50,822 nt of DNA from a virus, in the IMG/VR virus record IMGVR_UViG_3300035698_003328, positions 1 to 50,822 of that record; one strand, given 5' to 3'. Of the stretch, positions 7,769 through 50,822 are shown piece after piece (the stretch's first letter is position 1; the number at the start of each line of letters is the position of its first letter). The notes beneath the pieces were generated by a model. It was not told where the DNA came from, made no database searches, and saw only the letters and a program-made list of their open reading frames with translations. The position numbers and the translations under genes are program-made.

Positions 7769-8291
7769 TTGGATTTCCTCCAAGGGTTTCGTAAATTTGG
7801 TTAAGGTATTCTACTAATTTGTCTAAGTCAATTCGAGCCTGTTTGGTACTAATACCTAAATTAATGTAAGAGCAAAGTTTAAGAGAAGAGGATGTAAGTC
7901 TTTTAAGATTAGGGGCTTCTGTGGAATTGGTAAGTTCATTTCTTAAGTCCTCCATTTCCATTTGAGCCACACCTAATGTGCGTATGGCATGGTCCAGTTT
8001 AGTAAGCTTAATATATTCTGCTGCATCAGATAGACATTTAAGAGAGTTATTTATTAAACATAACTTTCTTGCATCATTCTCAAACTCTCTTACATTGTGT
8101 AAGACAGTTTGTTCTTCAAACAGTGATTTATTTAGCTCGTAGTTATGATCTCTAAGAGTCTTTCTTTTCTCTTCAGCTTGCTTAATCCGCTCCATCTCAC
8201 TACGTACAAATCCCCGGACTAGTTCTTCTAATTTAACTTGGGCTTTTAGCTTCTCTATTTCTTCAGCCAATTTTAGTATTGCATCTTCCAT
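7734..8291 (-). CDS. Coiled-coil early protein
   Basis: 185 aa, starting MEDAILKLAEEIEKLKAQ with AGGAGGAAGTAAG before the ATG. The first ~70 residues have heptad-like Leu/Ile spacing and strong charge, typical of a coiled coil; the rest is also helical. Unrecognised family. A copy of the genome-wide 25-bp palindrome lies inside this gene (8084-8108) and encodes TVLHNVRE, the only copy found inside an identifiable gene. It starts just after the ATPase gene stop at 8293, so they are cotranscribed. Confidence 0.75.
   Translation of the reverse strand: MEDAILKLAEEIEKLKAQVKLEELVRGFVRSEMERIKQAEEKRKTLRDHNYELNKSLFEEQTVLHNVREFENDARKLCLINNSLKCLSDAAEYIKLTKLDHAIRTLGVAQMEMEDLRNELTNSTEAPNLKRLTSSSLKLCSYINLGISTKQARIDLDKLVEYLNQIYETLGGNPNESPYSAKSNT
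8084..8108. repeat. 25-bp palindrome copy 2 (inside a gene)
   Basis: Arms ACTCTCTTACA and TGTAAGACAGT around a short centre. The only copy inside a coding region; see copy 1 at 3-27 for the family. Confidence 0.75.
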
Positions 8292-8292
8292 C

Positions 8293-9486
8293 TTACTTCC
8301 TCCTATCAAAGACTAAAAATTTCCCACCATCCTTGACTTCTCTTCTAATCTGACCAGTTTCAACCAACCCCTGCAAGATTCTTCCTAAGAGAAGTGGGTC
8401 ACTAACATCACTGATAAATCGTTTTATAAAACTCTCATACTTAACTCCTTCTTCCTTATGTTTCTTAATAAATTCAGTCATTTCATAAACCGTATTCGCA
8501 TCCTTCGATGCTCCATAACCTCCGAACGCATGGTGCATTACTTCTTCTGCTGAACCGAGAACTGCAGCAGCGCGTTCAAAGTCCTCAAGGATAAGCTCCA
8601 TTAAGCTTGATCGAGAGGCGCTAAGAATCATGCTGATCTTAAGGAGATGAAGTGCTCGACGCTTCTCATAAGGATCAAAGATTTTGCTTTCCCTCAAATG
8701 TTCAGGGGGTTCTTGCGTTTGATACCAGTTATCGTAAGCTTTTCGATATTCTTTCGTCGCGTGGAAGTCACCTTTCATTAGTTTAATTTCATTAAGATCG
8801 CTGATTAAGCGTTTCCTAAGATCAGAGATTGATTCACTTACATCTGTATCAAAGATTGAAATTTTTCGTGCTCGATCACGAGCGTAGATGAATAGGGTTC
8901 GGCTTGTGAATCCGCCTTCGATAGAGGAGCGTGGAAGGCTTTCACGAATTAAAGTCGGCGTTGTTGCGCCAATTAATGTGAGCCAGCCATTATAAACTTC
9001 CTCCTTTCCTCGTCCGATAGTTTCGTAGTCTCGATGATCCGGGCAATCATATAAGTCACATAGAACATCGAGCAACTCACCCTCTTGTCTTCGAAGGAAG
9101 ACGGTTAATTCTTCGCTGAAAATTGTCATTGAGCTGTGTTCAATCTGCTCTCCGCTTGGCATTGAAACATTCTCACGAGTTTGAGTTAGCTGGAGGAATA
9201 GTGCCTGCAATGATCCGGAGGTTGACGCAAGATTTACTCCAACACTGTCGAGCATTAGTTTAATCGGCTTAAGAGCAGTTCCTTTCCGCGCTCCCGAAGG
9301 CCCAACAAGAACGAGGAAGAGATTTGGGTAGATTACTAAGTCAGGTGAAAAATAAAGTCGGCATTTTCTCTGTAGAGCACTCGCAATGCATGCTATTCCT
9401 GCCCAGGCTCTAAAGAGATCAGAGCTTTCTGAGTTCTTCGTATATATTAGATAGTTGCTTAGCCAATCCTTCAGAGTTCGAGGCAT
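8293..9486 (-). CDS. DUF3987-like ATPase, putative replicative helicase
   Basis: 397 aa. Residues 62-70 read GPSGARKGT, a Walker A variant typical of DUF3987/YfjI-type P-loop proteins, and 120-127 MTIFSEEL looks like Walker B. The C-terminal ~80 residues resemble a winged-helix (final segment on switching and residue pairs like GRILQGLVETGQIRREV). Such proteins sit beside phage DNA polymerases and are thought to act as helicases or primase-helicases; no separate helicase or primase is visible in this genome. The start overlaps the polymerase gene end by 68 bp and has AAGGAGG upstream. The call rests on motifs and context. Confidence 0.75.
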   Translation of the reverse strand: MPRTLKDWLSNYLIYTKNSESSDLFRAWAGIACIASALQRKCRLYFSPDLVIYPNLFLVLVGPSGARKGTALKPIKLMLDSVGVNLASTSGSLQALFLQLTQTRENVSMPSGEQIEHSSMTIFSEELTVFLRRQEGELLDVLCDLYDCPDHRDYETIGRGKEEVYNGWLTLIGATTPTLIRESLPRSSIEGGFTSRTLFIYARDRARKISIFDTDVSESISDLRKRLISDLNEIKLMKGDFHATKEYRKAYDNWYQTQEPPEHLRESKIFDPYEKRRALHLLKISMILSASRSSLMELILEDFERAAAVLGSAEEVMHHAFGGYGASKDANTVYEMTEFIKKHKEEGVKYESFIKRFISDVSDPLLLGRILQGLVETGQIRREVKDGGKFLVFDRRK

Positions 9487-12025
9487 TTACTTCAACCTCC
9501 TTCATATCACGCATGTTTAAGCCGACCTTGAAATCAGCAGGAATGATGAATTGAGTGCCTTTCCACGAAACTGGCGTTTCGAGGTTCATCTTTATTTCAA
9601 TAAGTTCACATGCCAGAAGTATCCACTGAGCATGGTTATTGGGTGCTGGTGATTCAAAGAGAATAGAGTCGTGAATTTGATTAAGTAAAATTATGTTATT
9701 GTATAAAGCATCATGATAATAAATCGGCTCAATGCCTTCGTGATTAATCTTATGTGCAACAGTTGATTGTGGGATGTAGGAATAAGCTTCTTTAAAAAGA
9801 TCTTCGCTTAATCGACCAAGAAACAAACGCTTCTTCCCATAACAATCCGTGAGGAAGCGTGTTCGAGAAACTTCATCCTTGACCCACTGATGGTATTTGC
9901 GGATTCCTGGATAAGCACGATGATAACCTTCGACAATTATTTTAGCTTCACTCTCAGGCATTTCATATTGAAGTGCGAAGCCTCTGTAAGAGAGTCCATA
10001 GTTGAGTGAATGATTAGCTTTCTTCCCCCAAAATCTCTCGCTGAAAGCTCCTCCTGCAATAGAAGAGGAGCCTTTCTCATCGCTGATCTCCTCAGTTGGT
10101 TTATTAAATATTCCACTAGCCGTGAGTCTATGCACATCAACGCCATCAAGAAAGGCTTGTTGCATCTTCGGTTCAGGAGCGATCTCTGCTACATCCCGGT
10201 TTTCGGCTTGGGAGAGATCAACGTTAATAAGTAAGCATCCGTCATCGGCAATGATGTATTGCTGCATTTCTGGCGGGAGATTTTGTACGTTTGTCCCAGT
10301 TCCAAAGATATTCGATGAGCTGGAGAGCCGTCCGGAAGTAGTACCAACAGGATTATAGGAGCACCTGAGTCGTTCATCAGAGTCAAGCTGGACATCGAGG
10401 TAGGTTCCTTTGAGCTTTTGCAGATGACGGATTTCCAGTAAAATTCCCGCTTCCTTAAAACCTTTACGGCTGAGTCTCTTAAGCGCCTTCTCATCCGTCG
10501 TAACGCTCTGCGTACGTTTCCCACTCTTATCTTTAGTTGTTTTAACATAAGCCTTTAGTCCTTTTAAGACGTAAAAGTGATTAGCGATTTGAGCAGGTGA
10601 GTTAGGATTAATTTCGTAACCAATGGTTTCGTTTAGTTCGGTTGATAATTCTGCGAGCCCGAGTTCTGCATTAGCGCTCGCTTCACGTAATCCTTTCACA
10701 TCTACTTTCATCCCATGCTCTTGCACGAAGGTGAGGGGTTCGATTAGTCGAAGACGGTTTTCATAAGCAGGAATGTTACCTTGCTTCTCAAGATCCTTAA
10801 TTACTTCAGGATAAATATCTAATGTGGTTGCTGCATCGAGTGCATTGTAGTTCCAAAATTGTTTCCATGAACCTGTTTGAAGTTTGAACCACGTTTTACC
10901 TTCGTCTTTGTAATAGGGCTGACGAGTGTGGATGGAAGTGAGGAAGTCAAGTCCTTTGGGAAATTGGGGATGAGAGATTCCAGCCGCAATCATTGTGTCA
11001 CCAATGTTGCGAGTTATTATTCCATACTTACGGAAGAGAAAGTGAGAGTCAAAGAGGATGTTCTGGCCGATTTTTTTCACATTAGGATTTTCAAGCAAGC
11101 GTGAGATTGATTGCCAGATTTTAGCTTCATTCTCTGAGGACCAATAGTTTTGCCAATCTTCAAGGAAAGCTATAGTTCTTGAGCAAATTACTGAAGTAGG
11201 AATTTTAAATGGTCCACCACGTTGCTCAACCCAAACATTATCATAGTGTGCAAATGCAATGCACGCAACTTCTCCTCGCATTACCTCAATATCGTAAGAG
11301 ACTTGTTCTTTGTATTCTAGTTCTTTTATCCAGCCTAAAGTATCATTTATAGAAAACCATTTGTCGGGGAGCATAATTTGATATGGTGGTTTGATGACTT
11401 CAGGAAACTCACTCTCCTCACGAACACGGTTGAGATCTTGCATAATATAGTATTTGTATAAATATTGTCCTGGAGTAGCGAAAGTGGTTTCTTCATTCCT
11501 TCTATCCCGAGATAATGCAGCGCTTGGATGAATAATAGGGATTACTTTAATTGGCCGGCCAAGAAAATCACTTTCGTAAATTGATCCTCGTCGTTTAGTT
11601 ATTTTAGGTAAGTTACAGAAAACCCACATAGGAACATTCCCACAAAGAACGAAGACGTTAGCAGAGCAAGTTTGAAGTTCTTCTTTAAGAAGCTCAACAT
11701 AATAATCAAATTCAGGAGTTGTTTTAGCTTCCCCTTTCTTATTAAATGTGATGAATTTACTGATGTTATTATTCTCTGGTCGCTCCTTAACAACATTAGT
11801 AATATAAATCTGTTTACGATTTAGGTAAGAACTAACAAGACATTCGTTCAACAAGCGTCCAGCTGGTCCGATGAATGGCTTTCCACACTCTTCCGGAGAG
11901 AGTTTAGGAAAGTCCGATCTTTGTTGGTCTGTTGCACGGACTTCCATCTCTCCAGGAGCTTCGCCAATGATACATATTTGGCAAGTTTCCTTTGGTCCTT
12001 CTCCGTAGACGAGAGTTTTAGGCAT
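9419..12025 (-). CDS. DNA polymerase family A fused to uracil-DNA glycosylase
   Basis: 868 aa. Residues 1-~190 match family 4/5 uracil-DNA glycosylases: GEAPGEME, then GKPFIGPAGRLLNE after an insertion, TNVVKERP and a late IHPS. A 3'-5' exonuclease domain follows with DIE (~243), a FD in the second motif (~325) and a YNALD third motif (~393), so proofreading looks intact. The polymerase has motif A DLSQAENR (~601-608), motif B RFWGKKANHSLNYG (~662-675) and motif C QIHDSI (~781). It copies the phage genome; the fused glycosylase could remove or stall at uracil. The ATG at 12025 is chosen over an upstream TTG because GGAGAAAGCT sits just before it. Confidence 0.92.
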   Translation of the reverse strand: MPKTLVYGEGPKETCQICIIGEAPGEMEVRATDQQRSDFPKLSPEECGKPFIGPAGRLLNECLVSSYLNRKQIYITNVVKERPENNNISKFITFNKKGEAKTTPEFDYYVELLKEELQTCSANVFVLCGNVPMWVFCNLPKITKRRGSIYESDFLGRPIKVIPIIHPSAALSRDRRNEETTFATPGQYLYKYYIMQDLNRVREESEFPEVIKPPYQIMLPDKWFSINDTLGWIKELEYKEQVSYDIEVMRGEVACIAFAHYDNVWVEQRGGPFKIPTSVICSRTIAFLEDWQNYWSSENEAKIWQSISRLLENPNVKKIGQNILFDSHFLFRKYGIITRNIGDTMIAAGISHPQFPKGLDFLTSIHTRQPYYKDEGKTWFKLQTGSWKQFWNYNALDAATTLDIYPEVIKDLEKQGNIPAYENRLRLIEPLTFVQEHGMKVDVKGLREASANAELGLAELSTELNETIGYEINPNSPAQIANHFYVLKGLKAYVKTTKDKSGKRTQSVTTDEKALKRLSRKGFKEAGILLEIRHLQKLKGTYLDVQLDSDERLRCSYNPVGTTSGRLSSSSNIFGTGTNVQNLPPEMQQYIIADDGCLLINVDLSQAENRDVAEIAPEPKMQQAFLDGVDVHRLTASGIFNKPTEEISDEKGSSSIAGGAFSERFWGKKANHSLNYGLSYRGFALQYEMPESEAKIIVEGYHRAYPGIRKYHQWVKDEVSRTRFLTDCYGKKRLFLGRLSEDLFKEAYSYIPQSTVAHKINHEGIEPIYYHDALYNNIILLNQIHDSILFESPAPNNHAQWILLACELIEIKMNLETPVSWKGTQFIIPADFKVGLNMRDMKEVEVNASNSEGLAKQLSNIYEELRKL

Positions 12026-12050
12026 AGCTTTCTCCAATGATTAAGGTAGT

Positions 12051-12259: not shown

Positions 12260-12512
12260 CACTACCTCCCACTAAAATCTCACTTGCATTAGGAATTTCA
12301 AGTATGCTTCTTGCTGTGAATGAGGAGATTATGTGCCAACAATCATTGCAATAACACGGACGTTTTCCTTCATACTTCTTACTACATTCAAGACAAGTGT
12401 GTTCTTTAACCTGCATTCTTCGTGGTCGAGCATAAGAACGATCAAGGGGCTCGAGTTCATAATCAAAGAATGCGGCGAGTTTGCGCCAGCTTTTGGAACG
12501 TTTATTAGTCAT
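12249..12512 (-). CDS. Small zinc-finger protein
   Basis: 87 aa, starting MTNKRSKSWRKL after GGGAGTTTGGTG. The centre carries CLEC and, about ten residues later, CYCNDC, a probable four-cysteine zinc knuckle, with a strongly basic N-terminal half (RSYARPRRMQVK). That combination suggests nucleic-acid binding. Its start overlaps the end of the ParB-methyltransferase gene by 8 bp, so it is probably coupled to it. Confidence 0.75.
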   Translation of the reverse strand: MTNKRSKSWRKLAAFFDYELEPLDRSYARPRRMQVKEHTCLECSKKYEGKRPCYCNDCWHIISSFTARSILEIPNASEILVGGSDDE

Positions 12513-13836
12513 CACCAAACTCCCTCTCCGCAAGTCGTTGGAGGAATAATAACTTCATCTCCGTTTCAATCTCGTAGCCAAACGCGCTCATCCCGACTTC
12601 TCTCGCGGCGATGAGAGTGTTTCCGCTTCCAAGAAATGGAACCATGATGCGACTAGTTTCCATGCAGAATGTTTGAAGGATTTGTTTAAGAAGCTCGATT
12701 GGTCGCTCAGTTACATGAATGCGGTTGTTGCTTGGAATCGTTGGGTGGAAGAAAGTGTTTAGTCTTCCACCTTTATTGAGCATCGCACGGCCCTTGGTCA
12801 TGTAATAAAATTGATCCTGAGCACAAGCAAGATGATAACTGGGCGCGTTGCAGATTCCATTTGGCTTGATCCAGAAGCCAGGATTACGCGTGCCACGGAA
12901 GCCGACGAGTTGAAGTTCATTAAAGACAACTTCTTGCCAAGGCTCATTCGAGAACCAGACAATGATCCAACAGTTATCGCGTAGGACGCGAAAGCATTCT
13001 TCGAAAACCTTCTTAAGGAATGAAACATATTCATGCGCTGCGATCTCGTGGTAGAGAGAAGTTGGGCCTATTGTTTGCTCAGCGTTCTTGCTCCTCCGGC
13101 TGCTTTGAATATCAATTGCGTAAGGTGGATCAAGTTCAATGAAATCCACACTCTTGTCGGGGACTTTCTTGACGAGTTTAAAGAAATCTCCTGTTATGAA
13201 TGCATCGCTTAAGTAACGCTTTGCTTGATCATCTTCGAATTCATTGTTTCCGCTCATTGCATTAATCGCACGAACGCGATGTTCAAGTTTTCTCATAGTG
13301 TTCATAATTTCAAGCTGTGAACCAGCGCCTTCAAGTTCGGGAAACATATCAACTGCGTCAGCAACATGAACATGGCGAGAGATAGTTGCTTCTGTTACAC
13401 CGAGCATAGTTGCGGTGTCTTTCATAGTCCATCCGCATCCGTAAGAGACTTGATCAGGGTCGATTCCACGAGCTTCGAGTTGCAAGCAATGGATGTCTCG
13501 GGTTAAGCGAGCTTCTTGCGCTGGTGTGAATTCCTTTCGACGGAGGTTTTCAGCAAGCTCAATTGCTTTAATCTCAATTGCGTTAATATCTTTACGGACT
13601 ACGTGGACTGGGACTTCAGTCCATTGGAGTGAAATGATTGCACGAATCCGTCGCTCGCCCGCAAGGAGTCGCAGAGTCCCATCCTGATCACAGACGACAG
13701 GGAAGTGGAGAAGTCCTTCATGTTCGATGGAGGATGCGAGTCCAGAAATATCTCCAAGATCGTTTTCACGAGCACGATCGGTTATTAGGATTGAGCTGAT
13801 TGGGACAACTCGAACATCAGGAAGATTTCCTTTCAT
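12505..13836 (-). CDS. ParB-domain / DNA methyltransferase fusion
   Basis: 443 aa. Residues ~5-95 are a ParB/Srx-type N-terminal domain (LLAGERRIRA). Residues ~135-165 look like the KorB/ParB helix-turn-helix (DTATMLGVTEATISRHV). The C-terminal half is an adenine- or cytosine-N4 methyltransferase with DPPYAID (~236) preceding FLGSGNT (~399), the order of the beta class. It probably methylates phage DNA, either to resist host restriction or to mark sites; the HTH may supply specificity. No partner endonuclease is nearby. The ATG at 13836 has AAGGAGG upstream and overlaps the previous gene by 20 bp. Confidence 0.88.
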   Translation of the reverse strand: MKGNLPDVRVVPISSILITDRARENDLGDISGLASSIEHEGLLHFPVVCDQDGTLRLLAGERRIRAIISLQWTEVPVHVVRKDINAIEIKAIELAENLRRKEFTPAQEARLTRDIHCLQLEARGIDPDQVSYGCGWTMKDTATMLGVTEATISRHVHVADAVDMFPELEGAGSQLEIMNTMRKLEHRVRAINAMSGNNEFEDDQAKRYLSDAFITGDFFKLVKKVPDKSVDFIELDPPYAIDIQSSRRSKNAEQTIGPTSLYHEIAAHEYVSFLKKVFEECFRVLRDNCWIIVWFSNEPWQEVVFNELQLVGFRGTRNPGFWIKPNGICNAPSYHLACAQDQFYYMTKGRAMLNKGGRLNTFFHPTIPSNNRIHVTERPIELLKQILQTFCMETSRIMVPFLGSGNTLIAAREVGMSAFGYEIETEMKLLFLQRLAEREFGDD

Positions 13837-14008
13837 TAGTCTTAGCCTCCTTCTTAATTTCTTCAATTCTTTTTATTAAGTCATCAACCATTTTATCAGA
13901 ATCATATCCGAACTCTCGCAGCTCTTCCTTTAATTTTTCAATAGTCATTCCTTCAGAGTCTTCTAAGTATTTATAGAAGGATTTAAGAAACTGTCCGAGA
14001 TTCTTCAT
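13817..14008 (-). CDS. Small helical hypothetical protein
   Basis: 63 aa, starting MKNLGQFLKSFYKYLE after AAGGAGACTAGTG. Very charged and predicted mostly helical. No family recognised. It overlaps the genes on both sides by about 20 bp. Confidence 0.7.
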   Translation of the reverse strand: MKNLGQFLKSFYKYLEDSEGMTIEKLKEELREFGYDSDKMVDDLIKRIEEIKKEAKTNERKSS

Positions 14009-27987: not shown

Positions 27988-28275
27988 ATGATTGGGAAGG
28001 TTTTAGATGAAGCGAAAGCTTTAATTAATGGGGCGAGACGAGAATCGTATGGGAGTCCGCAGGAGAGCCTCAACCGCGTTGCCGCGTTCTGGAGGAATTA
28101 TTTATCTGTTATTGATAATGGAGAATATGCTCCGAAAGTTAACATAACTGGTGCTGATGTCGCGCTGATGATGGTTCTTTTTAAAGTTGCTCGTGAATCT
28201 AATGAGCATTCTCGTGATAATATTGTGGATATTGCAGGCTACGCAGGATTAGCGGGGGAGTTTGAAGATGAGTAA
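27988..28275 (+). CDS. DUF6378-like phage protein
   Basis: 95 aa starting MIGKVLDEAKALINGARRES after GAGGAGAATTAGCG. The features ARRESYGSPQESLNRVAAFW, ADVALMMVLFKVARE and DNIVDIAGYAGL match DUF6378, a helical phage family that may resemble nucleotide pyrophosphohydrolases (MazG-like) but has no proven activity. It is the first rightward gene and overlaps the terminase small subunit by 8 bp. Confidence 0.8.
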   Translation: MIGKVLDEAKALINGARRESYGSPQESLNRVAAFWRNYLSVIDNGEYAPKVNITGADVALMMVLFKVARESNEHSRDNIVDIAGYAGLAGEFEDE

Positions 28276-28816
28276 TGGTAAGCTAATTCCTCTGCGCCGT
28301 GATCTAAGGCGGAACCCGGATGGCTCACGAACAACGTATGTGAAGGAGATGCAGGCTTGGCATCAGAATGTTCTCGTGATGAAGACGATGGGCTGGACGA
28401 ATGTTGATATTGCAGCGAAGACTGGGTTTTCGAAAGAGCATATTAGCACGATTGTGAATTCGCCAGTCTTTAAAGCCGCGATGGAGCAATTCATTAAAGC
28501 GCATGTGGCTGATACGTTGGATTTGCAGAAAGAGCTCATGCACCTTGTTCCCTCCTCGATTGCGGCAATCAGCGAAACGTTGAGCGATGGTGAGGCGAAG
28601 GCTAATGATAAATTGAGAGCCGCATTTAGTGTTCTCGACCGCGTTGGGGCTCCACCGAAGGGTCGGTTTAACGAATTCGGCGCAGGAGCGCCCGGCGATC
28701 AGCAGCATCTTCACATTCATCTAAGTGATGCAGAGGCTGATGAACTGAGGCAAAGGGCGAAGATTGCGAGAGTTCCTGAATTCATTAATGGGGAGGTTGA
28801 GAATGATGATGACTAG
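28268..28816 (+). CDS. terS: Terminase small subunit
   Basis: 182 aa from the ATG at 28268 (GGGGGAG upstream); a TTG six bases earlier is not needed. A helix-turn-helix lies at about residues 44-65 (TNVDIAAKTGFSKEHISTIV), the usual DNA-recognition part of small terminases, followed by a helical middle and acidic tail. It would select phage DNA for packaging with the large subunit at 29014. The hairpin array sits between the two genes. Confidence 0.8.
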   Translation: MSNGKLIPLRRDLRRNPDGSRTTYVKEMQAWHQNVLVMKTMGWTNVDIAAKTGFSKEHISTIVNSPVFKAAMEQFIKAHVADTLDLQKELMHLVPSSIAAISETLSDGEAKANDKLRAAFSVLDRVGAPPKGRFNEFGAGAPGDQQHLHIHLSDAEADELRQRAKIARVPEFINGEVENDDD

Positions 28817-28819
28817 CCT

Positions 28820-28942
28820 CGTTTGCCCCAGGCAAACGCATAGCCCATTCATTCTTCTCTCCGTTTGCTCCGCAAACGCGTTAGATGCGTCCTCCTCGTT
28901 CCCCAGAGGGAACGCAGTAGCCCCTTCGTTCGCAAGCGAACG
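28820..28942. repeat. Four tandem hairpins with compensatory stems
   Basis: CGTTTGCC/GGCAAACG (28820-28838), CGTTTGC/GCAAACG (28862-28878), CGTTCCC/GGGAACG (28897-28914), CGTTCGC/GCGAACG (28927-28942). All stems are perfect although their sequences differ, and the downstream flanks share short GCATAG, GTTAG, GCAGTAG and GCTTAG blocks. Successive starts are 42, 35 and 30 bp apart. Confidence 0.85.
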
Positions 28943-28970
28943 CTTAGCCAGATTCGATTATGAAGGACGA

Positions 28971-28995
28971 ACTCTCCTGCATGATGTAAGAGAGT
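28971..28995. repeat. 25-bp palindrome copy 7
   Basis: Arms ACTCTCCTGCAT and ATGTAAGAGAGT, 19 bp before the large terminase start codon. Confidence 0.85.
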
Positions 28996-29013
28996 TTGTG
29001 GGAAGAATAAACC

Positions 29014-30501
29014 GTGATCATTCCTAACCTTGCTGAGCCAGAATTTCAGAAACTCGCTGAACGGTGCGCGTTCGACACGCGGATGTTCGCACAAGTTTTT
29101 ATGAAAGACGTTTTTGACTTACCATTCTCCCCTGTCCACGATGAGATTTTCCGCATTTTCGATGATGATGAGATTCAGATGGCTGCAATCGCAGCTCCTC
29201 GTGGCTGGGGCAAAACTTCTCTTTGTCGTGCTCTTGAAGCTCGTCACATCTGCTACCAGTCGAAGAACTACATTGTCCCGGTTTCTAAGACTGCAACGCA
29301 GGCTGAAGAACAATCGGAGAATCTTAAACACGAGCTCCAATCCAATGCGATGATTAGGAAAATCTTCGGAAGCATTAAGCAGAAAGTCGCTCGTGGGGAT
29401 CAATTTTCGAAAACTGCTTGGGTCACGGACACTGACATTAAAGTAATGCCTCGCGGCGCAGGTCAGCAAATTCGTGGAACTAATCATCATAGTAAGCGCC
29501 CGGACTTAATCCTCTTCGATGACTTTGAAGACAGTGATGAGGTTCAGAATGAAGAGCTAAGACGAAAGAATAAACTCTGGTTCTCCTCTGATGCTCGATT
29601 CGCTGTGCAAGATTATCGTAAAGACTGGCGGATTCTCGTCGTCGGGACTGTTCTCCATGAAGACTCCCTCCTCCAGAATCTCCTTGATAGTGAAAACTGG
29701 TATTCAATTCGTCTTGAAGCTTGTGATGATAATCTGAATTCGAACTGGCCCGCGGTTGTTACTAATCAACGGATTTTGGAACTCCGTGAGGAGTTCAAGA
29801 GAGAAGGCTTACTCGACGTATTTTATCGTGAATATCGCAACATGCCTATTTCAACTGAAGATGCAGTCTTCCGGCCTGAGTATTTTCAAAACTATGATGA
29901 GATGATTGAGAAACTTGACGATAATGATCAAGTCGAGAATGTCGTCCTCGTTGATCCTGCGAAGACGGTGAAGATGCACTCTGCCGACAGCGCAATTGTG
30001 GGCGTAGGCGTTAAGCATGATGGTCCGGGAATCTATGTGCGGGATATTGAAGCTGGTAAAATGCACCCCGATGAAATCTATGAATGTGCGATTAAGATGG
30101 CTCTTCGCCTTGGCTCTCGTGTGATTGGTGTGGAAGTAACCTCGCTGAATGAATTCATAACTTACCCGTTCCAAGATGCTATTAAGCGAAGTGGTCGATT
30201 TATTGAACTGGTTGAGCTGAAGGCTCGAGCGCATAAACAAGATCGGATTGCGGCTCTCGCTCCATTCTACCGAAAAGGCTTGGTCTTCCACAATCCTCGC
30301 GTAAGTGGAATTCTGGAACAACAACTAATGGCGTTCCCGCGTGCGAAGCGCTGGGACGTAATGGATGCGTTTGCTTACATCGTTGAACTCCTCGACATCG
30401 GTGATCGGTTCTTCGCTCCTGCTGAAGATATGTATGAAGAGGAACTCAGCCGTCTTGATCGGGAGGCTGAAAACCTTGGTGATTGGCGTTATGCTCCATA
30501 A
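29014..30501 (+). CDS. terL: Terminase large subunit
   Basis: 495 aa from a GTG at 29014 (GGGAAGAATAAACC upstream). Walker A is APRGWGKTS (61-69), Walker B LILFDDFED (165-173). The RNase H-like nuclease has Asp314 (LVDPAKT), Glu374 (GVEVT) and Asp448/Asp451 (WDVMDAFAYI). It cuts and pumps phage DNA into the capsid with the small subunit upstream. The complete motif set gives high confidence. Confidence 0.95.
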   Translation: MIIPNLAEPEFQKLAERCAFDTRMFAQVFMKDVFDLPFSPVHDEIFRIFDDDEIQMAAIAAPRGWGKTSLCRALEARHICYQSKNYIVPVSKTATQAEEQSENLKHELQSNAMIRKIFGSIKQKVARGDQFSKTAWVTDTDIKVMPRGAGQQIRGTNHHSKRPDLILFDDFEDSDEVQNEELRRKNKLWFSSDARFAVQDYRKDWRILVVGTVLHEDSLLQNLLDSENWYSIRLEACDDNLNSNWPAVVTNQRILELREEFKREGLLDVFYREYRNMPISTEDAVFRPEYFQNYDEMIEKLDDNDQVENVVLVDPAKTVKMHSADSAIVGVGVKHDGPGIYVRDIEAGKMHPDEIYECAIKMALRLGSRVIGVEVTSLNEFITYPFQDAIKRSGRFIELVELKARAHKQDRIAALAPFYRKGLVFHNPRVSGILEQQLMAFPRAKRWDVMDAFAYIVELLDIGDRFFAPAEDMYEEELSRLDREAENLGDWRYAP

Positions 30502-35489: not shown

Positions 35490-37874
35490 GGCGGCGGAGA
35501 AGGCCAGTTGGCCTTCCTATGGGATGGGGTTGATGCGAGCACTGATCATTTCGGCTTGAACTATGGCGCTCTCTTCATGTACGATGCGGGGACTGGCGGC
35601 ATTGCAGTTGCTGCTCGCGTCCAACCGTTCGTTAATGCAGCGAATGCTGTTGATTGCGCTGGAGGCTATTGGATCGGAGTCGGGGGCCGCTACGAAGCGG
35701 GTGATAAATTCCTTGCTCAGCGCCTCGGCGTTCGTGTTCCAGGTGCGAGTCTTGAAAGCGCAGCTCTCACGGTCGGAGCGTGGCATGAAACTGGTGCAGA
35801 TAATGATCGCTGGATAGCATTCCGTCGAACAGATGCGTATGCTGGCGCAGCTGCTCCTGTAAAATATGCCTTGCTTTATAACTATGCTGCTGCCACTCCC
35901 TTTGGGATGTATTTGTATGAAGTTACACTTGAAACAGCTGATCCGATTACTGTTCAAGAACGCTTTGTAATCTCTGATTGGCGTGCTGATGGTGGAGATT
36001 ACGCTGGCCTTGCGGGTGGCTATGGCGGCTTCGGCTTTAACACTCTGCCTGCTGTGGGCGAACTGGCTCGCGGCCTCCTCGATTACGCTGGCGAAGTTTA
36101 TTGGATTGCTCAGAATTCTACTGCTGCCGGAAGCACTCAATTCAAGACTGAAGGTGATACCGCAACGATCTGGACTTCGATGGGAGTTGGAAGCTCCTCT
36201 CATGCTGATGCTCCTGATTGGTGCTGGGCTGGATGGACCGGCGCTGATTCTAATGGAATCTGCCTTGGGGGATTTGGAAACACAGTGACGGCTGCAGGGG
36301 CTTCACTCGTCATCCATAATCAAAGCGGAACTCAACCTGCTCACGCGATTGCATTTAAGGGAAATGCGCTGTTCTTCGGAGCGACTGACGTGACAGATGG
36401 AGGTGGAGGAGCTCTTACTGCTCTGACTGCTGGAGGATTAGCTTACTCTGGTGGAGCTTTCTATGCTTGTGATGGCGCTGCTTGGAATGCGTTTGGATCT
36501 GGAATTTGGGTGCGCGACACTTACGGGATTTCGTTTAATGAGGCCACGAAGAATATAGGAGTTGGACAATCCTCGCAAGCTAACTCTAAGATGCGATTAA
36601 CTTGGGATTATTCAACAAGCGGAGTATCCTCAATCTATGGTGGGTATTTCACTACAGCCACAACTCTAAATAGCGCTGATTGGCATGGTAGCATTGCATT
36701 TCTTGGGATTGCGTATGTAAATATTTCCGGTGCTTATGCCACAAGTGGCCGTCACGTTGGAGCCCATGCAAGATGTACCTTGGAAAGTGCAACTGCTGGA
36801 AGCACCAACACTGGATACCTTGCAGGATTAGAGATTTTATCCGGCCACAACGCTGGGTCATGCACAACCGCTACGGTCTATGGCGTAAAAATAACACCTT
36901 ATTGGAAAACCGGAACCGTTACAACCTACTATGGTTGTTTTATCGACGAACCCGAAGATGGGGGTACTTGCTCAAATAAATATGCTTTTTATGCTAAAGA
37001 AGCTACCATGCTGAACTACTTCGCCGGCAACGTTGGAATGGGTACTCTTCCTATTGCTGCTGCTGACCTTCGTGTGCTTGGTCCAACGCAGATGGGAGAT
37101 TCAAATAGTCAATATTATAGAGAAACTCTTTTAGTCCAGGAAAGCTGGACCCAAACAACTGGTGATGACTACATGACCCATTTCAATGCTTCAGTTACTT
37201 TTAACGGCGCGAACTCAATGTCCGGAGGCTCTTTGCTTGCAAAACTTTATCCCGGTCTTGCAAGTAATGCGGCTAATGCTGGAGGTTATGCAATTCTCGC
37301 CCATGCTACTTGGGACAGAGACACTGGGGTTGGCTATACTCTTGGAGCTATAGCCGGAATCGTGAGTCAATATGGCATAAACAATGGCGGCGATGATATA
37401 TCAATAAATGTTGCAATGGGCATGTACATTCAGCCACATCATATGCGGAAAAATGGCTCTAGTGGAACTTGTGCCATTACTGTTGATCATTCTATAAGCA
37501 TCGCTGCACCAATTCACACTGGTGGTACAGCAATCGTTCCGACAACTTATCATGGACTTCATTTGGCTACTTGGGGCATTAAAACTCGTCCAGCAGCTGG
37601 AAACTATTTCGGAATTTACCAGGAAGATCCTAGTGCTGAGAACTGGTTCGCTGGTAATGTAGGCTTTGGAACTGGTGGAAGCAATCCGGCTGAGGATGTT
37701 CATGCTAAAGATACCGTTCGAGCTGATCAACGATTTAATTGCGCCGGTTTTGATGGGTACAGTGCGGCTGGCGAAACTATTTATACCTTTAGAATTGATG
37801 CTCCGGACTTTGATACGCAATTACATATCACCGTTGCTGGTGGCTTGATAACTAATATAACGAAGACCACATAA
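35490..37874 (+). CDS. Large tail-fibre/tail protein, C-terminal part after the in-frame UGA
   Basis: 795 codons in frame with 35265. A TTG at 35508 has GGAG eight bases upstream, so independent initiation (788 aa) is also possible; that site overlaps the hairpin. Beta-rich, Gly/Ala/Thr-rich, with sequences such as NIGVGQSSQANSKMRLTWDY and NYFGIYQEDPSAENWFAGNV typical of tail-fibre and spike stalks. Probably the receptor-binding fibre. The domain near the end recurs in weaker form at 38588. Confidence 0.78.
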   Translation, partial: GGGEGQLAFLWDGVDASTDHFGLNYGALFMYDAGTGGIAVAARVQPFVNAANAVDCAGGYWIGVGGRYEAGDKFLAQRLGVRVPGASLESAALTVGAWHETGADNDRWIAFRRTDAYAGAAAPVKYALLYNYAAATPFGMYLYEVTLETADPITVQERFVISDWRADGGDYAGLAGGYGGFGFNTLPAVGELARGLLDYAGEVYWIAQNSTAAGSTQFKTEGDTATIWTSMGVGSSSHADAPDWCWAGWTGADSNGICLGGFGNTVTAAGASLVIHNQSGTQPAHAIAFKGNALFFGATDVTDGGGGALTALTAGGLAYSGGAFYACDGAAWNAFGSGIWVRDTYGISFNEATKNIGVGQSSQANSKMRLTWDYSTSGVSSIYGGYFTTATTLNSADWHGSIAFLGIAYVNISGAYATSGRHVGAHARCTLESATAGSTNTGYLAGLEILSGHNAGSCTTATVYGVKITPYWKTGTVTTYYGCFIDEPEDGGTCSNKYAFYAKEATMLNYFAGNVGMGTLPIAAADLRVLGPTQMGDSNSQYYRETLLVQESWTQTTGDDYMTHFNASVTFNGANSMSGGSLLAKLYPGLASNAANAGGYAILAHATWDRDTGVGYTLGAIAGIVSQYGINNGGDDISINVAMGMYIQPHHMRKNGSSGTCAITVDHSISIAAPIHTGGTAIVPTTYHGLHLATWGIKTRPAAGNYFGIYQEDPSAENWFAGNVGFGTGGSNPAEDVHAKDTVRADQRFNCAGFDGYSAAGETIYTFRIDAPDFDTQLHITVAGGLITNITKTT
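35499..35516 (+). promoter_or_regulatory. Stem-loop just after the UGA of the fibre gene
   Basis: GAAGGCCA and TGGCCTTC, 8-bp arms around GT, starting nine bases past the stop codon. Spacing is like that of recoding elements but could also mask the alternative TTG start. Confidence 0.6.
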
Positions 37875-50695: not shown

Positions 50696-50822
50696 GTACT
50701 CTCTTGCACAATGTAAGAGAGTTTGAGGGAGAGAAAAGACTATGCCTAATCAGGGTTTACTTTCGAAGTTTATGAAAATGTTTGGAGGATACACCGGAGC
50801 TGGTACTACAGCTGGCGGGCCA
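50696..50822. repeat. Terminal direct repeat, right copy
   Basis: Identical to bases 1-127. It re-enters the gene at 47, so the rightward operon continues across the contig ends. The unique genome length is 50,695 bp. Confidence 0.93.

Follow-up and report, generated by a model that had tools for sequence, protein, structure and literature searches.

Four small hairpins between the small and large terminase genes of a phage with SU10-type portal and capsid

Introduction

In the cip-cel operon, stem-loops located between the genes of one complex set the ratios of the transcripts, as they direct cleavage and shield the resulting ends (PMC4423207, PMC10311766). The pac region of phage SPP1, where packaging is initiated, contains direct repeats, grouped in three sets, around the beginning of the small terminase gene (PMC4737164). 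Hairpin stems can also originate by mutation, as template switching can make a whole stem in one event and may help to keep its arms paired, its part in the maintenance of short stems being described as less clear (PMC8794818).

Here we describe four small hairpins located between the small (terS) and large (terL) terminase genes in the genome of an uncultivated phage, IMG/VR record IMGVR_UViG_3300035698_003328, which was analysed as a single stretch of 50,822 nucleotides (the window). The portal and capsid are of SU10 type. The window has identical ends (1-127 and 50696-50822) whose length of 127 bp is that of a common assembler k-mer, from which we infer that the contig end displays circular closure and not the ends of the virion DNA; the window is probably a circular assembly, and these ends are probably not true terminal repeats. 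Two multidomain gene products were encountered elsewhere in the window: a single 872-aa frame (9419-12037) joins, in this order, a uracil-DNA glycosylase domain and a family A DNA polymerase that includes a 3'-5' exonuclease, an unusual fusion, and the frame at 12505-13866 fuses a ParB N-terminal domain to an N6/N4 DNA methylase domain.

Anatomy and significance of the hairpin array

The four perfect stems that a sequence-only reading had reported at 28820-28942 proved to be exact in both coordinates and pairing, and their location between terS and terL was confirmed by PHROG matches and by matches of the terS ORF in relatives (Table 1). On the + strand, reading from the terS stop, the order of elements is TAG-CCT-H1-CA-TAG-(18 nt, nearly all pyrimidine)-H2-CGT-TAG-(12 nt)-H3-CAG-TAG-CCCCTT-H4-CT-TAG, with start-to-start spacings of 42, 35 and 30 nt. 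The fifth TAG, located 5' of H1, is the stop codon of terS and at the same time the first TAG of the repeat pattern. The short shared flanks had been taken as a hint of a repeated unit, and alignment of the four units bears this out: constancy is confined to the CGTT/AACG foot and to the 3' flank, C N(1-3) TAG (CATAG, CGTTAG, CAGTAG and CTTAG), while the apex, the loop and the linker are variable. From the foot and flanks that they have in common, the units descend from one ancestor.

Table 1. Coordinates of the hairpin array and of the neighbouring features in the window.
Feature	Coordinates	Strand	Description
H1	28820-28838	n/a	CGTTTGCC-cca-GGCAAACG; 8 bp, loop CCA (3 nt); RNA MFE -9.8 kcal/mol
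H2	28862-28878	n/a	CGTTTGC-tcc-GCAAACG; 7 bp, loop TCC (3 nt); RNA MFE -6.5 kcal/mol
H3	28897-28914	n/a	CGTTCCC-caga-GGGAACG; 7 bp, loop CAGA (4 nt); RNA MFE -9.9 kcal/mol
H4	28927-28942	n/a	CGTTCGC-aa-GCGAACG; 7 bp, loop AA (2 nt); fold gives 6 bp, loop CAAG; RNA MFE -5.8 kcal/mol
Whole array	28814..28947	+	four units: TAG - pyrimidine-rich linker - hairpin - C N(1-3) - TAG
AACTCTCTTRCATNATGTAAGAGAGTT copy before terL	28970..28996	+	18 nt before terL start; RNA fold -16.2 kcal/mol; separate from array
terS (small terminase subunit, HTH)	28262..28816	+	phrog_2538 E=1.9e-4; terS ORFs of relatives matched down to E=1.2e-14; alignment
terL (large terminase subunit), GTG start	29014..30501	+	phrog_38 E=8e-75; relatives to 54% identity
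74-codon open frame, judged non-genic	28803..29027	+	good Shine-Dalgarno; codon score -0.05

The array contains four perfect hairpins within 123 nt, compared with a maximum of two in 150 dinucleotide shuffles of the whole window (0/150 above two), and at least three hairpins were obtained in none of 20,000 shuffles of the 135-nt array stretch. The window as a whole contains 26 perfect hairpins (perfect stem of at least 7 bp, loop of 2-4) versus 11.4 +/- 3.5 in shuffles. Folding of the array gave z = -5.4 as single-stranded DNA, and z = -3.2 and -3.4 for the two strands as RNA. The array is real and non-random, and the symmetry of its arms is certain, because pairing drops to 23-46% in a sliding-partner control. 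That this symmetry was selected is less secure.

The stems had been described as compensated, each right arm changing to match the left. The matching is real, but the amount of compensated variation is small, being confined to two of the seven pair positions (T-A/C-G and G-C/C-G) in four copies, and formal covariation is weak, as the 100% pairing of the four copies was matched by 21/500 shuffles. No wobble pairs are present in the four stems. Of the proposal that structure and not sequence was selected, the part that places structure over fixed sequence is supported, while selection itself is not required, since template-switch mutation can make perfect hairpins and keep them so (PMC8794818). 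Half-site spacing inside the 7-bp arms is 5, 3, 4 and 2 nt for H1 to H4, respectively; because this spacing varies, hairpins in RNA or single-stranded DNA fit better than a rigid dimeric DNA operator, and the array is unlikely to be read by a DNA-binding protein that forms a rigid dimer.

The terS-terL gap and the terL leader

The late operon is tightly packed, with a median gap of 1 nt, and the gap of 197 nt between terS and terL is its second largest; the largest, located before position 35508, may in part be due to a start codon assigned too far downstream. An open frame crosses the terS-terL gap, and the array might thus be part of a small coding gene, a reading we find hardly credible. 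The frame possesses a strong Shine-Dalgarno sequence and overlaps both terS and terL by 14 nt, and some relatives have a small gene at this position. Its codon score, however, lies at the wrong-frame median (-0.06) and below the 1st percentile of real genes (0.05), the hairpins fall in two frames, the frame has no PHROG match, and a regulatory palindrome is located inside it. A coding gene at this position was rejected on its codon use.

This palindrome, the 27-bp near-perfect AACTCTCTTRCATNATGTAAGAGAGTT, is found at ten sites in the window (2, 8083, 12050, 18069, 21880, 25815, 28970, 30819, 35206 and 44632). At eight of these, a gene starts 13-64 nt further on; those at 8083 and 35206 are farther from the assigned starts, and the gene calls there may be wrong. 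An extra half-site is present about 21 bp downstream of five of the ten copies. As the geometry is nearly constant across copies, the palindrome behaves like an operator/promoter family, and its sites are likely to form such a family genome-wide, the copy at 28970-28996 being the probable operator/leader element of terL. Four other late-strand copies begin 0-9 nt after the upstream stop codon, whereas the terL copy begins 153 nt after the terS stop, and it is the array that fills those 153 nt, from the terS stop to the leader palindrome. Given this displacement, the array appears to have been inserted, or to have expanded, at the terS 3' end and outside the terL leader, a birth that is read from distant junctions because the best terL identity among relatives is only 54%. 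The translational control of terL that had been proposed for the array becomes less direct, as the palindrome lies between the two and is the nearer candidate regulator.

Dispersed families of 12-mers with a spacing of several kb are present in related genomes (G004, G006, G007, G009, G016, G017, G019 and G021; loci L214-L251). Examples are AAGTGTCCTAGG, TGCTATGTTACA, ATTTAAAATAAA and CTGAGCGGTCAA; these families mostly differ between lineages and may represent phage-specific promoters.

Absence of the array from relatives

Two terL-alignment scans, combined with earlier matches, provided 150 terL loci in 94 groups without a shared 40-mer, and a hairpin array was found in the terS-terL junction of none of them. 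In relatives with terL immediately after terS, the two mostly overlap, by 3-22 nt, or lie almost end to end; in other relatives, one small gene or several genes separate them. No cluster is present in the scanned 40 kb of SU10 or in the Desulfofustis phage. The sequence-only reading had raised a packaging signal and had named homologous phages without conserved stems as its refutation; this is what the SU10-like phages displayed at terL, so that a packaging signal general to this group is not supported, and on this comparison a conserved packaging signal is disfavoured.

A similarity search of the array region in phages and plasmids gave no match, and no close relative was found by terS or by the dispersed palindrome used as an exact pattern. 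The window contains no second CGTTYSC hairpin outside the array, and nothing similar was present in phage or plasmid records. A motif scan of viral contigs returned 14 scattered single matches and no array like that of the window, and a scan of genome contigs gave no TAG-flanked array among the matches listed. A mobile family with dispersed copies is unsupported, because the motif was found nowhere else. In Blastococcus and Geodermatophilus genomes (L107, L166 and L167), the matches listed also included CGTTCCCGCGGGAACG palindromes in pairs 26-42 bp apart, which apparently belong to an unrelated host repeat family.

Unrelated hairpin clusters in the clade

Three relatives (G007, comprising L031 and L032; G004; and L331) possess hairpin clusters upstream of terS, the sequences of which are unrelated to those of the window. 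The hairpins of G007 (L031/L032; also L216) have the feet GGTGAATT, with a conserved foot and a variable apex; perfect hairpins occur over this genome at 2.35 per kb versus 0.29 expected, some of them inside the terS coding sequence. G004 carries GTCTGAC stems with the loops GCA, GAA and GTA, and L331 varied stems with loops that are mostly GCA or GGA. The arrays at L331:60-330 and L248:60-390 are non-coding, located upstream of terS, and contain many C-GNA-G loops, the motif that characterises mini-hairpins of very high stability in single-stranded DNA. Scanning of thirteen other genomes gave no cluster under the settings that recovered the G007 hairpins, and one weak AT-rich cluster, in G012, under another set of settings only. 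The hairpins of L026 were rejected as an array, being collagen-like GGP codon repeats.

Between L031 and L032, which are 81% identical, some stems are kept with turnover of the loop, some hairpins have decayed, and others occur in just one of the two phages. With at most one compensated double change per comparison direction, this pair does not point strongly to structural selection. Since clusters occur in three relatives and units were gained or lost within one pair, template switching could maintain the symmetry, which could persist in this way without selection.

Like the array of the window, those of G007, G004 and L331 consist of short, perfect hairpins clustered in non-coding DNA. They differ in being located upstream of terS, within about 2 kb, and not between terS and terL, and the loops of G004 and L331 are mostly of the C-GNA-G type, to which in the window only H2 conforms (minus strand, GGA). 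That all these clusters are shape-defined arrays near the terminase genes with one function, read as structure on single-stranded DNA or RNA in the start of replication, the start of packaging or terminase expression, and with a sequence re-invented in each lineage, seems to us quite improbable.

Discussion

We consider it about an even chance that the array is a cluster of non-coding, non-autonomous hairpin repeats, specific to this lineage, in the terS-terL gap, with a possible effect on the late mRNA. The TAG-linker-hairpin unit would have been duplicated locally at the 3' end of terS, upstream of the palindromic leader of terL, and the two arms of each hairpin would have changed together by template-switch copying, by weak selection for folding, or by both; duplication and independent selection are inseparable with four copies. 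In the late mRNA, the four stem-loops would provide terS with a GC-rich, structured 3' flank lacking a terminator U-tract, where they might impede 3'-5' degradation or mark a site of processing, leading to an unequal abundance of terS and terL transcripts. In general, the two terminase subunits are required in differing amounts. The effect of the array, if any, is most likely exerted on mRNA processing or stability between the two genes.

The same hairpins might be neutral repeats without function, made and kept symmetrical by template switching at quasi-palindromes during replication, which we regard as a possible but rather unlikely account. Template switching can create whole stems and may help to maintain pairing (PMC8794818), and the excess of hairpins in G007, the hairpins found in only one of L031 and L032, the lack of conservation of the site in relatives and the perfect pairing of the stems, free of wobble, are all in line with neutrality. 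The same source, however, calls the role of template switching in maintaining short stems less clear, and the genome contains a single cluster, located in one of its few real gaps, with foot and flanks conserved.

Two further readings assign the palindromes to a DNA-binding protein. A pac site, in which TerS would bind the four palindromes beside its own gene, is suggested by the adjacency of the array to terS and by known pac sites, which are located in or near terS and contain repeats; we hold it improbable, given the absence of an array at terL in the 150 loci of relatives, the poor fit of a varying half-site spacing to a rigid dimer, and the DNA-binding domain of SF6 TerS, which was found to be non-sequence-specific towards its own pac region (PMC4737164). 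The end repeat of the contig, being of assembler k-mer length, does not locate the true genome ends. Multiple double-stranded DNA operators, through which a phage or host regulator would control transcription of terL, would match the palindromic CGTTYSC half-sites, their short spacing and their position upstream of terL. This reading is very doubtful, as the half-sites are spaced by 2 to 5 bp and change symmetrically, and as the genome already possesses an operator-like family of nearly constant geometry with ten sites, including one at terL.

Control of the terS:terL RNA ratio by the hairpins would make the locus a compact phage example in which stem-loops between genes set the stoichiometry of a molecular motor. 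Should the hairpins be neutral, the locus warns that compensation in the stems of a single genome need not imply selection for structure, as template switching can yield such stems. In both cases, unrelated hairpin arrays recur near the terminase genes of several relatives, which is a testable pattern.

Comparison with known element classes

Several classes of element were considered for the array and dropped, among them tRNA, CRISPR-like arrays (the repeats are not identical) and integron attC sites (GTTAGATGC resembles one box, for which no partner box was seen by eye). A search of Rfam gave no family at gathering score, the best match (E=0.21) being far below it. No intrinsic terminator, consisting of a GC hairpin and a U-tract, was found, and plain termination is unlikely because no U-tract follows any of the hairpins. 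The N4-type single-stranded DNA hairpin promoters have a uniform short stem and a 3-nt loop, and were dropped; the loops of the array differ in length (3, 3, 4 and 2 nt) and have no shared bases. A 1511-aa protein of the phage gave one weak match to the virion RNA polymerase profile (E 4e-4), too short and too near the N terminus (positions 302-433 of 3406) to indicate a polymerase, and PF00940, used as a test for this polymerase, matched neither the phage nor the control genomes.

The REP/BIME elements of bacteria resemble the array in being tandem extragenic palindromes that lie 3' of a gene, have a foot in common and vary in a complementary way, and the array likewise clusters its four palindromes in 123 nt of a non-coding gap. 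It is REP-like in look and fails the tests for REP membership: the window contains one cluster only in place of many dispersed copies, GTAG or GGAG at the hairpin foot is absent from the array flanks, and a Y1 (RAYT) transposase (PF01797) is absent from the phage genome. The double-hairpin and repetitive hairpin elements of organelles (e.g. PMC2800124) are also small, structured intergenic repeats of variable sequence, but are present in many dispersed copies, in contrast to the single local cluster in the window. The headful pac sites of SPP1 and SF6 (PMC4737164) share with the array the presence of repeats near terS; those of SPP1, however, are direct repeats across the promoters and the start of terS, whereas the array consists of inverted repeats after terS that are not conserved. 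In comparison with the selective RNA processing systems, the array is made up of four tandem small hairpins of one family and is located in a phage. It shares with these systems the presence of GC-rich stem-loops between the genes of one multi-subunit complex in one operon, terS and terL being encoded on the same strand and assumed to be co-transcribed, and might likewise make the levels of the two transcripts unequal.
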